Of a DNA stretch of 64,000 bases, positions 27,452-55,638 are shown piece after piece. The notes below the pieces were generated by a model. That model was not told the origin of the DNA and searched no databases. It saw only the letters and a list, made by a program, of their open reading frames with translations. Made by a program: the position numbers and the translations under genes. Source of the stretch: Deltaproteobacteria bacterium (GTDB lineage Bacteria > Desulfobacterota > Binatia > DP-6); the NCBI GenBank assembly GCA_005879795.1, contig VBKJ01000146.1:1-64000 (forward strand), given 5' to 3'. The first letter of the stretch is position 1; every line of letters starts with the position of its first letter.

Positions 27452-29938
27452 ATGGACGAGAGGAGTCAGCGGGTTCCGGTCAACATCGAGGACCAGATGC
27501 GCGAGTCCTACATGGACTACGCGATGTCGGTCATCATCGGGCGCGCGCTGCCCGATGCCCGCGACGGGCTCAAGCCCGTCCACCGGCGGATCCTCTACGC
27601 CATGTTCAGCGAGGGACTCCTCCACAACCGCCGTTACTCGAAGTGCGCGGGCGTGGTGGGCGAGGTGCTCAAGCGCTACCACCCGCACGGCGACAGCGCG
27701 GTGTACGATGCCCTCGTTCGCCTCGCGCAGGAGTGGAACCTCCGCTACCCGTTGGTCGACGGGCACGGGAACTTCGGGTCGGTCGACCCCGACCCGCCCG
27801 CCGCCTACCGGTACACGGAGTGCCGGCTCACGGAGCTCGCGGAGGAGCTCCTCGCCGACATCGACAAGGAGACGGTCGAGTTCGTCCCGAACTTCGACGA
27901 TTCGACCCAGGAGCCGCTCGTCCTCCCGAGCAAGGTGCCGAACCTGCTCATCGACGGGTCGGCCGGCATCGCGGTCGGGATGGCGACGAACATCCCACCC
28001 CACAACCTGGGCGAGGTGTGCGACGCGCTCGTCGCCCTCGTCGACCATCCGGAGCTCACGGTCGACGAGCTGATGCGGTACATCCCGGGGCCGGACTTCC
28101 CGACCGCGGGCTTCATCTGCGGCCAGAACGCGATCCGGGAGGCGTACCGGGAGGGCCGCGGCATCCTGACGGTGCGCGCCCGGGCCACGGTCGAGACCGA
28201 CGAGAAGAGCGGGCGCTCCGCGATCGTGGTCACCGAGATCCCATACCAGGTCGGAAAGGCGCGGTTGCTCGACCGCATCGCGGAACTCGTGAACGAGCGG
28301 AGGCTCGACGGCATCGCCGACCTGCGCGACGAGTCCGACCGCGATGGCATGCGCATCGTGATCGACTTGAAGCGCGATGCGGTGGCCGAGGTGCTGCTGA
28401 ACCAGCTCTACAAGCACACGCCGCTTCAGGAGTCGTTCGGCGTGAACATGCTGGCGATCGTCGAGGGGCGCCCGAAGCTGCTCAGCCTGAAGGACGCCCT
28501 GCAGGTGTTCCTGAAACACCGCCGCGAGGTCGTCGTCCGCCGCACGAGCTACGATCTGCGCAAGGCCGAGGAGCGCCTCCACATCCTGGCCGGGCTCAGG
28601 ATCGCCATCGAGCACCTGGACGAGGCGATCGGCATCATCCGCGGGGCGCCCGATCCCGCCACCGCGCGCGAGCGCCTGATGGCGGCCTTCGCCCTCTCGC
28701 AGCTCCAGGCCCAGGCCATCCTCGACATGCGTCTCCAACGCTTGACCAGCCTCGAGCGCGAGAAGGTCGTCGAGGAGCACGCCGAGACCGAGAAGGCGAT
28801 CGCGCGCTACCGCGAGATACTGGGCGACGAGCGGGAGATCGCGAAGATCATCGCCGACGAGCTGCGCGCGCTGCGAGCGAAGTACGCCGACGAGCGGCGC
28901 ACGCGGATCGTGGACGAAGCGGCCGCGATCTCGGTCGAGGACCTGATCGTCGAAGAGGACATGGTGGTCACCATCTCGCATGAGGGCTACATCAAGCGGA
29001 ACGCCGTGGCCCTCTATCGCGCCCAGCGCCGCGGCGGGCGAGGGAAGATCGGGGCCACCACGCGCGACGAGGACTTCGTGGAGCACCTCTTCGTCGCCTC
29101 GACGCACTCCTACCTCCTCTTCTTCACAACCTCCGGGAACGTGTACTGGCTGAAGGTCCACGAGATCCCCCAGGCCGGGCGGGCGGCGCGCGGGCGGAGC
29201 ATCACGAACATGCTCAGCTTGAAGCCCGAGGAGAAGCTCTCGGCCTTCCTGCCCGTGCGCGAGTTCCAGGAAGGACGGTACGTGGTCTTTGCAACCCGCC
29301 GCGGCCTGGTCAAGAAGACGGACCTCATGCAGTACGCGAGCCCGCGGCCCTCGGGCATCATCGCCATCGCGCTCGAGGAGGGCGACGAGGTCATCGGCGT
29401 CCGCATGACCGACGGCTCGCGCGAGGTGATTCTCTCCACGCGCCTCGGCCAAGCGATCCGCTTCAAAGAGGTCGAGGCTCGAGCGATGGGCCGCGACACG
29501 TACGGCGTGCGGGGCATGAAGCTCGACCAGGGCGACGAGCTCGTCGCCCTCGATCTGGTCGAGCCGGGTGCGACGCTTCTGGCCGTGTCCGAGAACGGCT
29601 ACGGGAAGCGTACCGAGATGGACGAGTACCGTCTCACACGGCGCGGCGGCAAGGGCATCATCACCATGAAGACCACCGACAAGACCGGCCGCGTGATCGG
29701 CGTGCGCATGGTGACGGATGACGATCAGATCATGCTGGTCACGAGCGGCGGGAAGGTCATCCGCCTGCGCGTGAACGAGATCCGCGTGATCGGTCGCAAC
29801 ACGCAGGGTGTGCGCCTGATCGGCCTCGAGGAAGGGGAGCGCGTCGCGTCGGTTGCCCGCCTCGCCGAGCGCGAGGACGAGAGCGAGGCGAGGGACGAGC
29901 CCGTGGCGCCCGACTCCGATCCGGCGGCCGGCTCGTAG
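27452..29938 (+). CDS. gyrA: DNA gyrase subunit A
   Basis: 828-aa breakage-reunion subunit. The catalytic Tyr is residue 121 in [10 protein letters not shown]. The quinolone region reads [10 protein letters not shown] with Ser82 and Asp86, the susceptible-type residues. The C-terminal beta-pinwheel has the GyrA box QRRGGRGK (about 29026-29049), which marks it as gyrase rather than topoisomerase IV. The acidic end ([10 protein letters not shown]) is common. Start ATG 27452. Confidence 0.97.
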
Positions 29939-48425: not shown

Positions 48426-48889
48426 GCGGCAGGCCGGGCGCGCCGGAGCGCCCGCAGCAGAACGATCGCGATCGGCAAGTCCACGAGCGCGATCGTCAGC
48501 AGCGGGAACGCACGTGTCCATTGCACGAAGAGGAGGAGCCCCGTGGCCGACGACGCCAGCTTCGAGACGACGACCGGGTAGACCAGGGCTCGCCGGCGGC
48601 GCACGTCGCCGGCGGCGAGCCACGCGGACGCGGTGATGGTCGCCATGTTGGCTACGGCGAGCGCGAGCCAGAAGTCGGACGCGACCGGAGCTCGGCTCGG
48701 CGGTAGCGTCGGGAGCCCGAGCAGCGAGCCCACCCAGTCGAGGTCCCGCACGATGTCATCCGGACGGAGGAGGAAGCCGAGCGCGCCGAGCGCGAACAGT
48801 ACGGCGAAGAGACGGAGCCAGCGCGCCAGCGCACGCTCAGGCGTGCTGAGCGGGGCTGCGTCGGGCAGCGACGAGACGGCGATCGCCAT
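48422..48889 (-). CDS. Small membrane protein (about four TM helices), unknown
   Basis: 155 aa from ATG 48889, with AGGGACA upstream. Hydrophobic stretches: LFAVLFALGALGFLL, FWLALAVANMATITASAWL, VVVSKLASSATGLLLFV and LLTIALVDLPIAIVLL. No recognised family. Translationally coupled to pyrE. Positive-inside residues lie at RRRRAL and the C-terminal RRARPAA. Its start lies just beyond a decayed alcohol dehydrogenase. Confidence 0.6.
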   Translation of the reverse strand: MAIAVSSLPDAAPLSTPERALARWLRLFAVLFALGALGFLLRPDDIVRDLDWVGSLLGLPTLPPSRAPVASDFWLALAVANMATITASAWLAAGDVRRRRALVYPVVVSKLASSATGLLLFVQWTRAFPLLTIALVDLPIAIVLLRALRRARPAA

Positions 48890-48911
48890 TTGTCCCTGGG
48901 CGTCCACGATC

Positions 48912-49181
48912 GAGCGTTCCGGGTGTCGCGGCATGGGTGAAGGCCGCGACCGCGTCGCCGAGCGGATACACCGCGTCGATGAGCGCTGCAACCGACACGC
49001 GGCGGGCGGCCAGCGGGCGGAAAGCGCCCCCCGGCGTGAGCCCAGGATGGTCACCTCGTTGATCGGCGCGGCTGATGCCGCCGAGGTGGACGCGGACGAG
49101 CGCCTCGCCCGAGGCGGGTTCTGGATCGGGGAGACCGAGCGCGAGCGCCAGCCGGACTCCGTCCCAGCGCAGCGCCCGCAT
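48912..49181 (-). pseudogene. Zn alcohol dehydrogenase, collapsed to its two ends
   Basis: From an ATG at 49181 the frame begins MRALRWDGVRLALALGLPDP and continues EPASGEALVRVHLGGIS, the N-terminus of a zinc-type medium-chain dehydrogenase. It then runs directly into LAARRVSVAALIDAVYPLGD and AVAAFTHAATPGTL, which matches the C-terminus of the same family (normally about 270 residues later). The catalytic and cofactor domains are missing, so it is an internal-deletion pseudogene. The intact gene at 53923 has a different sequence and is not the source. Confidence 0.75.
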
Positions 49182-49191
49182 TGGTCGCGCG

Positions 49192-49815
49192 CTATTTCCG
49201 CACTCCGCGGTGAAACTCGCTCTCCGCCTTCGCGGCGACTGCCTCCGCGCGCTCGGCCGCGTGCTCGGCCGAGTCGGCGGCCGTTTCGAGGCGCCCCGCG
49301 GCGTCCTCGGCGCGCCCAGCCGCCCGCTCGGCGCGCTCGTCGGGACCGAGGCCGGCCGTCTGCTCGGCGCCGGAGGTCGTCCCGGGGGGGGCTGGCACGG
49401 CGGGAGGATCACCGGGCGGGGCACCCGCAGCGGGCGCCGCTGGCGCCTGCTTGGCACGCGCCTTCACGCGGCTCGCGAGCGTCGCCACCTGCTCGTCCGT
49501 GAGCGGCCGCTCGTAGCGCCGGATATCGATCTCCGGGTTGCCCAGGATCCAGGCGCGCGCGAAGCCGATCTCCTTGCGCGCGTCGAGGTAGTAGAGAGTC
49601 ACCTCGTGATCGTCCCACGGCGGCTCGTCGGCAAGGAAGTGCGACTCCGCGACGTCCGGCTCGCCGTTGCGGGCCACGTACGCCGCCAGGGTCCGGTTCT
49701 TCGCCATCTCGGCCCGCAGCTCGTCGTTGGTGAGCTCGCGCTCGCCGCGCGCGTGCGCCGCCACCCCGGCGAGCAGCAGCGCGCATCCCATCCCCACAGC
49801 CACGCCACGTCGCAT
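49192..49815 (-). CDS. Secreted hypothetical protein with Ala/Glu-rich helical tail
   Basis: 207 aa from ATG 49815, with GGAGGAGG upstream. Signal peptide MRRGVAVGMGCALLLAGVAA, cleaved near AHA or possibly lipid-modified at the Cys. The middle (NGEPDVAESHFLADEPPWD, DHEVTLYYLDARKEIGFARA) is well structured and contains several Trp/Tyr; the end is a Pro/Ala linker and a charged helix (RAEDAAGRLETAADSAEHAA). Not recognised. Its 3' end nearly touches the ADH pseudogene. Confidence 0.65.
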   Translation of the reverse strand: MRRGVAVGMGCALLLAGVAAHARGERELTNDELRAEMAKNRTLAAYVARNGEPDVAESHFLADEPPWDDHEVTLYYLDARKEIGFARAWILGNPEIDIRRYERPLTDEQVATLASRVKARAKQAPAAPAAGAPPGDPPAVPAPPGTTSGAEQTAGLGPDERAERAAGRAEDAAGRLETAADSAEHAAERAEAVAAKAESEFHRGVRK

Positions 49816-49950
49816 GCAACCTCCTCCGGCGGCGTTCTCCGCCTGCCCTCGAGCAGCATACACGCGCCCGGCCGGAGTGTCATGCAGCGGCGCTTGCCTC
49901 CCCGGGCGCCGTTCCTCTAGCATCCCGGTGCGGGTTCGGGCCCGCCGCGG

Positions 49951-51279
49951 ATGGTCTCCGACCCCCTGCTCGTCGCGCTCGCCCTGGCGCTCGTCGTGGT
50001 GAACGCTTTCTTCGTCGCCGCGGAGTTCGCCATGGTGCGGGTGCGGGCGACGCGGGTGGCGACGCTCGCCGCGGAGGGCCACTGGCAGGCGCGCCTCGTG
50101 GCCGCGCTCCAGCGGCGCCTCGACGTCTTCCTCTCGGCCACCCAGCTCGGGATCACGCTCTCGAGCCTGGGACTCGGCTGGATCGGCGAGCCGGCCTTCG
50201 CGCACCTCCTCGTCCCCCTCTTCGCCGCGCTCGGAATCGAGTCGGAGCGCGTCATCGAGAACACGTCGATCGCGGTCGCCTTCGCGACCATCACGGTCCT
50301 GCACATCGTGCTCGGCGAGCTGGCGCCGAAGTCGTTCGCCATCCGGTTCACGGAGCGCGTGGCCCTCTGGGTGGCGCCCCCGATGCGTCTCTTCCAGCTC
50401 CTCTTCGCGCCTGCCCTCTGGTTGCTCCACCGGGCGTCGAGGGGCACCCTCGCGCTTCTCGGCATGACCGCCGAGACGAGCGGCGACCTCGCGCATTCCG
50501 AGGAAGAGCTCCGCATCCTGCTCGCCGAGTCGCACCGCGTGGGGGTGCTCTCGGGCGCGAAGCGCGAGCTCCTCGAGAACGTCATCGACTACACCGAGCG
50601 CACGGCGCGCCACGTGATGGTGCCGCGGGCCGATATCGCGTACCTCTCGCTCGCCCGGAGCCTCGAGGAGAACCTCGCCGTCGTCACCCAGACCGCTGCC
50701 ACGCGCTATCCTCTCGCCGCGACCGACATCGACCACGTGATCGCCATGGTGCACGTGAAGGACCTCTTCAACCGCCGCGACCAGCTCCGCTCCTCGGAGG
50801 ACCTGGCGGCGCTCAAGCGCGAGATCCTCTTCGTCCCCGAGACGCGACCGCTCGACGCGCTCCAGAAGGACTTCCAGCAGCGGCGCACGCACATGGCGAT
50901 CGTGGTGGACGAGTATGGCGGCACCTCGGGGCTGGTGACCCTCGAGGACGTGATCGAGGAGATCGTGGGCGAGATCCAGGACGAGTTCGACCGCGAGCCG
51001 CCGAACGTCGAGGAGACGCCGCAGGGCCTCGTCTTCGACGGCCTCATGCTGGTGGACGACGTCGCCGAGCGGCTCGGCGTCAAGCTCGCAGAGACCGCCG
51101 ACGTGAGCACCCTCGGCGGCTTCGTGACGGCGCAGGTGGGGCGGATGCCGCGCCCCGGCGACAGGGTGGCCGTCGAGGGGTATGACCTCTCCGTCGCCGA
51201 GGTGAAGGGGAGGCGAGTGACCAAGGTGCTGGCCGCACGCCGGCCGGGCGTCCGGGCGGAGACGGCCGCCCGCGGTTGA
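49951..51279 (+). CDS. CNNM/CorC-type membrane protein with CBS pair
   Basis: 442 aa of the hemolysin-family/CorC-like transporters. N-terminal CNNM membrane domain (three to four helices; VVNAFFVAAEFAMVRVR, ATQLGITLSSLGLGWIGEP), a CBS pair at about residues 210-330 (VMVPRADIAYL, HMAIVVDEYGGTSGLVTLED), and the C-terminal CorC_HlyC domain with RPGDRVAVEGYDL. Role in Mg2+/Co2+ transport is likely. The next gene's ATG (51279) overlaps its stop, but that gene is broken. Confidence 0.9.
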   Translation: MVSDPLLVALALALVVVNAFFVAAEFAMVRVRATRVATLAAEGHWQARLVAALQRRLDVFLSATQLGITLSSLGLGWIGEPAFAHLLVPLFAALGIESERVIENTSIAVAFATITVLHIVLGELAPKSFAIRFTERVALWVAPPMRLFQLLFAPALWLLHRASRGTLALLGMTAETSGDLAHSEEELRILLAESHRVGVLSGAKRELLENVIDYTERTARHVMVPRADIAYLSLARSLEENLAVVTQTAATRYPLAATDIDHVIAMVHVKDLFNRRDQLRSSEDLAALKREILFVPETRPLDALQKDFQQRRTHMAIVVDEYGGTSGLVTLEDVIEEIVGEIQDEFDREPPNVEETPQGLVFDGLMLVDDVAERLGVKLAETADVSTLGGFVTAQVGRMPRPGDRVAVEGYDLSVAEVKGRRVTKVLAARRPGVRAETAARG

Positions 51280-51546
51280 TGACGGTGCTGGCGTTCGACT
51301 CACGCCCGAGCAGGTGCGGCTCGAGCAAACCGCGCGCCGCTTCGCCGCCGCGGACATCATTCCGGTGGCGGCCCGCTGCGACGAGGAGCAGCGCTTCCCC
51401 GGGGACGTGGCGCGCAAGGCGTGGGAGCTCGGGCTCATGAACCTCGAGGTGCCGCGCGAGCTGGGCGGGCTCCGGCTCGGCGTGCTCGACACGTGCCCCT
51501 CGGGGTGCAGCGCGCGGTGATCGCGCGCAACCTGCTGAAGGTCTGA
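51279..51546 (+). pseudogene. Acyl-CoA dehydrogenase remnant: N- and C-terminal ends joined
   Basis: ATG at 51279 overlaps the CNNM stop and opens MTVLAFD; a one-base loss near 51298 then shifts the frame to LTPEQVRLEQTARRFAAADI, IPVAARCDEEQRFPGDVARK and ELGGLRLGVLD, a clear acyl-CoA dehydrogenase N-terminus. After about 30 bases a third frame reads QRAVIARNLLKV and stop (51544-51546), the standard C-terminus of the same family. About 300 residues are lost between, so this is a non-functional pseudogene. Confidence 0.85.
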
Positions 51547-51599
51547 GCGCGCGGCGGCGGTTGACGGCGGCGCGCGCAGCCCGCTAAAGGGACGGCCCC

Positions 51600-52982
51600 G
51601 TGGCCAAGCGACCCACCAAGCACGGCAACTTCCTGGAGGACTTCCGCCCCGGGCAGGTCTTCCGCCACAAGCGCGGCAAGACGATCACCGAGGGCCTCTT
51701 CGCCGTCTTCACGGACTTCTGCTTCACCACCAACGCCCTCGCCAAGAACCGGCGCTACGCCGAGGCGTACGGGTTCCGCGGCCTGGTCGCGCCACCCGGC
51801 CTGGTGATGAACGTCGTCTTCAGCCAGAGCGTGGAGGACGTCTCCGAGAACGGGCGCGCGAACCTCGAGTACATCGACATGCGCTTCGGCGCGCCGGTCT
51901 GCGTCGGTGACACGATCGAGGCGACGTCGACCGTCCTCGGCGTGAAGGCGTCGTCGCGCGAGCGCGACCGCGGCGTGGTGCACGTGCAGACCGTCGGGCG
52001 CAACCAGGATGGCGAGGTCGTCCTCGCCTACCAGCGCAAGGTGCAGGTGTGGAAGGGCGACCCCGAGACGCCCGTCGCCGAGGGCGAAGCGCCGGCGCGC
52101 GACATCCCCGTCGCGCTCACGCTCCCGCCCTACGACCCGCGCCGCGACTACCGCGCGCTCGCGCATCTCACCGGCGACGACACCTATCTCGAAGACTTCC
52201 AGGCGAGCGACGTGTTCGAGCACTCGCGCGGGCGCGTGATCACCACCGAGCACATTGCGCTCACGGGGATGCTCGACAACACCTCGCAGGTGCACTGCAA
52301 TCAGTGGATGATCGACCAGGATCCCGAGCGCTTCCTGGGCGGGCAGCTGATCGTCTACGGGGGCATCCCTTTCTCTCTCTGCCTCGGGCTCTCCTCGCCC
52401 GACGTCGCCGACAACGCGCTGGCCGACGTCCGCTACGCGACCGGGCGGCACACGGCGCCGGCGTTCGCGGGCGACACCGTCTTCGCCACCACCGAGATCC
52501 GCGGGGTGAGCGACCTGCCCGGCCGCCCCGATCTCGGCGTGCTCGACACCGTGCTCCGCGGCCACAAGTTCGTGCGCAAGGGCGGGGCGGCGGAGAAAGT
52601 CGAGATCTTCTACCTCGAGCGCGAGATCGAGCGCGACCGGCGCACCGTCTGGGACGGGGTGAAGAACGCGCTCGCCCTGAAGCACCTGGCGGCCGTCGCG
52701 ACCGGCGACGAGGTGCTCGTCTACCACACCGGCGAGGAGAGGGCCGTGGTCGGCATCGCGAAGGTCGTGCGCGGCGCGTACCCCGACCCGAAGCAGAAGG
52801 ACACGCGGCTCCTGATGGTCGACCTCCAGCCGGTCAAGCCCCTCGCGCGTCCGGTCGCACTCGGCGAGATGCGCGCGAACCGCAGGCTCGCCGGCTTCGA
52901 CCTCCTGCGGCTGCCGCGCCTCTCGGTGATGCCGGTGTCGGCCGAGCAGTGGGCGGCCATCATGGAGATGGCGCGGCGCTAG
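51600..52982 (+). CDS. Fusion: double MaoC hotdog (Mch-like hydratase) with C-terminal EVE domain
   Basis: 460 aa. Residues 10-150 and 190-345 are two MaoC hotdog domains matching mesaconyl-CoA hydratase/beta-methylmalyl-CoA dehydratase (NFLEDFRPGQV, GLVAPPGLVMNVVFSQSV, RFGAPVCVGDTIEATS, YLEDFQASDVFEHSRGRVIT, RHTAPAFAGDTVFATTEI). From about residue 348 (RRTVWDGVKNALALKHL, VLVYHTGEERAVVGIAKVV, AYPDPKQKD, LLRLPRLSVMPVSAEQW) it matches an EVE/PUA-like domain without its first ~22 residues (the KSEP block). The DNA junction lies near 52625-52645. MaoC acts on acyl-CoAs and EVE on modified bases, so this is either a chimera made by deletion or a novel protein. Confidence 0.85.
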   Translation: MAKRPTKHGNFLEDFRPGQVFRHKRGKTITEGLFAVFTDFCFTTNALAKNRRYAEAYGFRGLVAPPGLVMNVVFSQSVEDVSENGRANLEYIDMRFGAPVCVGDTIEATSTVLGVKASSRERDRGVVHVQTVGRNQDGEVVLAYQRKVQVWKGDPETPVAEGEAPARDIPVALTLPPYDPRRDYRALAHLTGDDTYLEDFQASDVFEHSRGRVITTEHIALTGMLDNTSQVHCNQWMIDQDPERFLGGQLIVYGGIPFSLCLGLSSPDVADNALADVRYATGRHTAPAFAGDTVFATTEIRGVSDLPGRPDLGVLDTVLRGHKFVRKGGAAEKVEIFYLEREIERDRRTVWDGVKNALALKHLAAVATGDEVLVYHTGEERAVVGIAKVVRGAYPDPKQKDTRLLMVDLQPVKPLARPVALGEMRANRRLAGFDLLRLPRLSVMPVSAEQWAAIMEMARR

Positions 52983-52986
52983 CTAG

Positions 52987-53355
52987 GTGCGTGCCGCGGG
53001 AATCGTGACCGGCGTCATCGGCCTCGCGCTCGCGGCGCGCAGCGGGCTTCTGCTCGCCGGCCGCGGCCGGCCGCGGCGCGGCCCGCGGCCCGCGTTCGTC
53101 CTGGCAGGGCCGTATCTCCGCACCCGCAACCCGCTCTACGCCGGGCTCGTGCTCGCGCTCGGGGGCGCCGCGCTGGCGGCCGCCTCGTGGGGCCTCGCGC
53201 TCGTCGCGCTCGCGGCCGGCGTGGGCGCACACCTCTGGGTGGTGCGGGTCGAGGAGCCGCGCCTCCAGGCGCGCTTCGGGGCGGCCTACGCCGAGTACCT
53301 GCGGCGCGTACCGCGCTGGATGCCGACGCTCAGGCGCGGCAGCCTGTCCGAGTAA
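52987..53355 (+). CDS. Isoprenylcysteine-carboxyl/phospholipid methyltransferase-like membrane protein
   Basis: 122 aa. Two to three membrane helices (GLALVALAAGVGAHLWVV) and the methyltransferase signature GPYLRTRNPLYAGLVL followed by VEEPRLQARFGAAYAEYLRRVPRWMP, as in short ICMT/PEMT-like enzymes. N-terminal half is shorter than usual. GTG at 52987, four bases after the MaoC-EVE stop. Confidence 0.75.
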   Translation: MRAAGIVTGVIGLALAARSGLLLAGRGRPRRGPRPAFVLAGPYLRTRNPLYAGLVLALGGAALAAASWGLALVALAAGVGAHLWVVRVEEPRLQARFGAAYAEYLRRVPRWMPTLRRGSLSE

Positions 53356-55046: not shown

Positions 55047-55487
55047 ATGGCACGCCTGGGACCGTTCGTCATCCGGCTCGCGCTGGGGGTGATCTTCTTC
55101 GCGCACGGGGCGCAGAAGATGCTCGGCTGGTGGGGTGGCGCGGGGTTCAGCGGCACGGTCGAGGCCTTCACCAAGCAGGGCATGCCGGCACCCATGGCGA
55201 TGCTCGTGATCGCGGCCGAGTTCTTCGGCGGCCTGGGCGTCTTCTTCGGTTGTCTCACACGCCTCGCCGCCTTCGGGATCGCGGCCGTCATGACCGGCGC
55301 AATCTTCCTGGTGCACATCCAGAACGGCTTCTTCCTGAACTGGTTCAACGTGCCGGGAAAGGGTCACGGCTTCGAGTGCAACCTGGGCTATCTCGCGATG
55401 GCCGCGTCGCTCATGCTGACCGGCGCGGGACCGGTCTCGATCGACGCGCTCCGGGGTGGGAAGCGGACCGACCTGGACGCCGGGTGA
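55047..55487 (+). CDS. DoxX-family membrane protein
   Basis: 146 aa with four membrane helices. The family signature FFAHGAQKMLGWWGG and GFSGTVEAFTKQGMPAPMAM is present. DoxX proteins are linked to redox stress or quinone-related functions, not firmly defined. ATG 55047 with GGAGGAG. Same strand as the alcohol dehydrogenase. Confidence 0.9.
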   Translation: MARLGPFVIRLALGVIFFAHGAQKMLGWWGGAGFSGTVEAFTKQGMPAPMAMLVIAAEFFGGLGVFFGCLTRLAAFGIAAVMTGAIFLVHIQNGFFLNWFNVPGKGHGFECNLGYLAMAASLMLTGAGPVSIDALRGGKRTDLDAG

Positions 55488-55638
55488 GAGCGCGCGTCGC
55501 GAGCGGCCTTGCCGCCGCGACGTTCGCGGGTGGCGTGTCCCGCGGCGCGGGGCATCGACCTGGCTGATCGGCGAGCGGCGCGCCCGTGACTTACCTTGCG
55601 ACAGCGGTAGCGCCTGGCTAAACGTTACGCCGGCCCCG

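Follow-up and report, generated by a model that had tools for sequence, protein, structure and literature searches.

The window analysed here is a stretch of 64,000 nucleotides, in which positions 51600–52982 of the plus strand form a single unbroken open reading frame of 460 amino acids, running from a GTG start codon (51600) to a TAG stop codon (52980–52982). The N-terminal part of the product matches the MC_hydratase family (PF19315, residues 7–311, E 1.5e-18, 67.5 bits against a Pfam cut-off of 26.5) and MaoC (PF01575, residues 17–127, E 1.6e-11), carries the DNTSQVHCN motif of the double-hotdog body in alignment, and matches PDB 4e3e at an E-value of 2.9e-53. The C-terminal part (residues 343–457) matches positions 17–145 of the EVE profile (PF01878, E 9.4e-32, 110.4 bits against a cut-off of 23), the best match among solved EVE structures being PDB 2gbs (E 2.5e-25). 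Both domain matches are far beyond chance. The MaoC/mesaconyl-CoA-hydratase-type body occupies 51600–52625 (+; 342 codons) and lacks its last ~10 residues, the junction falls at 52625/52626, and the EVE domain follows at 52626–52979 (+), without its first ~18 residues as judged by alignment with 19 intact EVEs. The sequence-only reading of this DNA had described a hydratase body joined in frame to an N-truncated EVE domain, and the reading frame and Pfam matches confirm this. Its figure of ~22 lost EVE residues is revised to ~18 by comparison with the 136-aa EVE of relative G005, and the MaoC part, where no truncation had been noticed, also ends short of a conserved C-terminal tail. The fused gene is flanked by two intact neighbours that are shared with relatives by synteny, a CNNM/CorC-type CBS-domain transporter upstream (49951–51279, +; PF01595, PF03471) and a PEMT-family methyltransferase downstream (52987–53355, +; PF04191).

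Three genomes of the sister genus are available (G005, G002 and G006), together with two more distant relatives from the same family (G001 and G003). The gene order is the same in all three sister-genus genomes, but there MaoC and EVE are two separate, adjoining genes in different reading frames, and the MaoC body of the window is 75–78% identical to their separate MaoC genes. These end in ...YLERELVVKRRSHYA/T-stop (...LVVKRRSHYA-stop); the ATG of EVE overlaps the MaoC stop codon in G005 and G006 (TGATG) and directly follows it in G002. Relative to these genomes, the window differs at the junction only by the absence of one stretch, of 86 bp when compared with G005 and G006 or 88 bp when compared with G002. 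Both breakpoints carry in-register microhomology of 4–5 bp (CTCG in G005 and G006, CTGGT in G002), the pattern that a deletion would be expected to leave at direct repeats of very small length, and a random deletion would have about a one-in-three chance of bringing the two frames together. A deletion fusing neighbouring genes in frame was the first of the two explanations offered by the sequence-only reading, and the complete side-by-side genes of the sister genus bear it out; with two separate complete genes and no fusion, the sister genus also presents just the case that this reading had named as refuting the pairing. In G001 and G003, PEMT directly follows MaoC and EVE lies elsewhere in the genome, so the adjacency of MaoC and EVE is local to this pair of genera and provides no evidence of a functional link.

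The join costs each partner a conserved end, the tail of MaoC and the first strand of EVE. Among the MaoC homologues from the genome collection (L030–L083), every one of the 53 complete sequences carries a C-terminal tail of the KRRSHY type, 47 of them having exactly KRRSHY, and in an alignment of 32 of these R347, R348, S349 and Y351 are invariant. The deletion took the last ~10 MaoC residues, this tail included, and it is absent from the window protein. Most of the KRRSHY-tailed homologues come from Deltaproteobacteria and Myxococcota MAGs. On the other side, the first EVE strand (WLxKxEP, or WLLKTEP in the sister genus) is found in all 19 other aligned EVEs and is gone from the window. Strand 1 is part of the defining five-strand core of the domain, and strand 6 adjoins it (PMC7897488). 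The five-strand PUA-type core is incomplete in the window protein, where strand 1 has no match and the profile alignment begins at position 17.

What is left of the EVE domain is well preserved. It keeps 17/17 residues that are invariant among the other EVEs and 36/38 that are near-invariant. The tryptophan of its WDG motif (W26 in PDB 2eve) is retained as well. It is about as near to outgroup sequences as the intact EVEs of G005 and G002, and mostly nearer, and the GC3 of the segment is 0.98. Conserved residues, outgroup distance and GC3 show none of the decay that would mark an old pseudogene. This means that the event is recent, or is absent from the organism, or that the segment is still constrained, and by its conservation the fragment may retain a residual function. 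AlphaFold2 models of the EVE segment and of an intact control, made from two sequences each, are both of low confidence (pLDDT 65.6 and 62.0, respectively); within these low-confidence models a strand at 3–8 is predicted in the control and not in the window segment. The fused copy is the only EVE in the genome, a 4.1-Mb draft of 280 contigs.

The junction is not the only damage in this region. When ~60 kb of the window is compared with the five relatives, three sharp, window-specific, gene-damaging deletions of more than 40 bp are seen, all within 49063–52627, so that two deletions besides the one at the MaoC–EVE join break genes inside a 3.6-kb cluster. One has left an alcohol-dehydrogenase-like remnant (48837–49185, −) with an internal deletion of ~640 bp at 49063 and its C-terminal end out of frame; the gene is intact in G005 and G006. 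The other has reduced an acyl-CoA dehydrogenase, intact in G001 and G003, to a remnant at 51287–51546 (+) that consists of ~71 N-terminal codons followed by the last ~13 in another frame, with ~300 codons missing. A search for the missing body elsewhere in the genome gave nothing beyond remote paralogues, none of them more than 44% identical. Neither the acyl-CoA dehydrogenase remnant nor the N-terminal part of the alcohol dehydrogenase remnant shows visible decay. With three deletions clustered and their remnants so fresh, a local assembly problem becomes more likely, and from the sequence comparison the cluster would be either recent or such a problem. In the sister genus an XRE-type gene stands in place of the acyl-CoA dehydrogenase. 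Sharp differences in the rest of the ~60 kb, outside 49–52.7 kb, are mostly insertions in the sister genus or intergenic. The genome is small (4.1 Mb against 5.3–5.7 Mb in near-complete relatives of the family), and an explanation of this size by widespread small deletions was rejected on the ~60 kb compared. A DoxX-like gene, named from its own sequence, lies at about 55090–55500 (+) between an alcohol dehydrogenase and a glutamate-cysteine-ligase-like gene, and the stretch is missing at the corresponding place in G002 and G005.

A search of relatives for the same domain pair had been proposed in the sequence-only reading, and it uncovered no other case. Of 148 class genomes searched, 105 contain EVE, and an EVE that lies within a MaoC frame and whose match begins at profile position 17 occurs in the window's genome alone; a search with the fused protein found no further fusion among 395 genomes of the phylum, and EVE searches at 54 MaoC loci from the GTDB collection found none either. 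A recurrent MaoC–EVE architecture is accordingly rejected, the fusion being confined to a single genome in family, class, phylum and GTDB-wide searches. A literature search for a link between MaoC and EVE likewise found none among the papers listed. EVE is absent from 26 of the 95 good genomes of the class, which indicates that it is dispensable there, and other damaged EVEs occur in the class. The EVE at the same locus in G006 (G006:C83, about 29190–29540; L024 7195–7540) is damaged by a deletion of about 41 bp and a frameshift, suggesting that EVE at this locus may be dispensable, or that the locus is hard to assemble.

With two functionally unrelated neighbours fused and a conserved end of each lost, the join is most likely accidental, or may be a slip of assembly; a new kind of protein is the less likely reading. 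The preferred explanation, held with fair confidence, is a recent deletion of ~86 bp at the 4–5 bp direct repeats, giving an accidental fusion in one lineage with no selected architecture. Taking accidental and functional outcomes together, a real deletion is likely, and we infer that it is present in the organism itself. The contig may instead have dropped short pieces in three genes, while the organism carries hydratase and EVE as ordinary, unfused genes; this is unlikely, but it would account for gene damage that is confined to one short segment and leaves the remainder of the ~60 kb clean, for the undecayed dehydrogenase remnants and EVE tail, and it would suit a draft in so many contigs. 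Against such an artefact, the window contains no Ns, the GC content of the piece deleted between MaoC and EVE is 63%, which is not extreme, and the homology at the junction in the relatives is just 4–5 bp. A short-read assembler would need far longer homology than this to make a k-mer misjoin.

A functional fusion, in which the EVE part folds or has acquired a new role and tethers nucleic-acid sensing to the CoA hydratase, is very improbable. The open frame, the conserved EVE core residues, the high GC3 and the position of the fused copy as the sole EVE left in the genome are in its favour, but they have to be set against the loss of the first core strand and of the hydratase tail, the occurrence in one genome only, the separation of MaoC and EVE outside the sister genus, and a published census of EVE proteins that makes no mention of MaoC (PMC7641849). 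Slimmer still is the chance of an expressed and useful fusion protein, seen shortly after a deletion gave rise to it, in which the hydratase bears a remodelled EVE fragment that still binds nucleic acid or acts as a new tail for oligomerisation or regulation. The second explanation in the sequence-only reading, a new role connecting base sensing with metabolism, loses its footing on the same points: a single genome, two lost ends, and genes that are not neighbours beyond the sister genus. A functional link between hydratase and base reader is not supported.

Under the preferred explanation of an accidental deletion, misaligned replication or end-joining at the short repeats would have removed the 86 bp, taking the end of MaoC, its stop codon and the start of EVE, with frames that happen to match. 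Translation would yield a hydratase with its conserved C-terminal tail swapped for an EVE fragment without its first core strand. The new tail would presumably be useless or misfolded, and the EVE part has probably lost the ability to read modified bases; the hydratase could either suffer from the exchange or put up with it.

Stand-alone short EVE proteins (PF01878; solved relative RPA0253, PDB 2gbs) share the domain with the window protein from its TVWDGV(K/R)N motif through to the C-terminal end, whereas the EVE of the window lacks the WLxKxEP strand and has its N-terminus attached to another protein. Hydratases of the MaoC/mesaconyl-CoA (beta-methylmalyl-CoA) family (PF19315; PDB 4e3e, 8hgn) share the double-hotdog body, and the window MaoC is near-identical to its relatives in sequence and gene neighbourhood, except that its KRRSHY-type tail has been exchanged for EVE sequence. 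Among defence systems, EVE is fused to other domains in EVE-HNH proteins such as VcaM4I, in GNAT-EVE and in MmcQ/YjbR-EVE (PMC7641849, PMC7897488). The window protein resembles these in having EVE attached to another domain; in contrast to their recurrence, mostly in defence contexts, it is a one-off that joins a metabolic enzyme to a truncated EVE. On any connection of acyl-CoA metabolism with base reading, the fusion gives no reliable information. One short deletion between adjacent genes can be enough to produce a striking pair of domains in a draft genome, and comparison of gene order with sister taxa resolves such pairings. If the deletion is real, the locus would represent a nearly breakpoint-resolved fusion gene at its birth.
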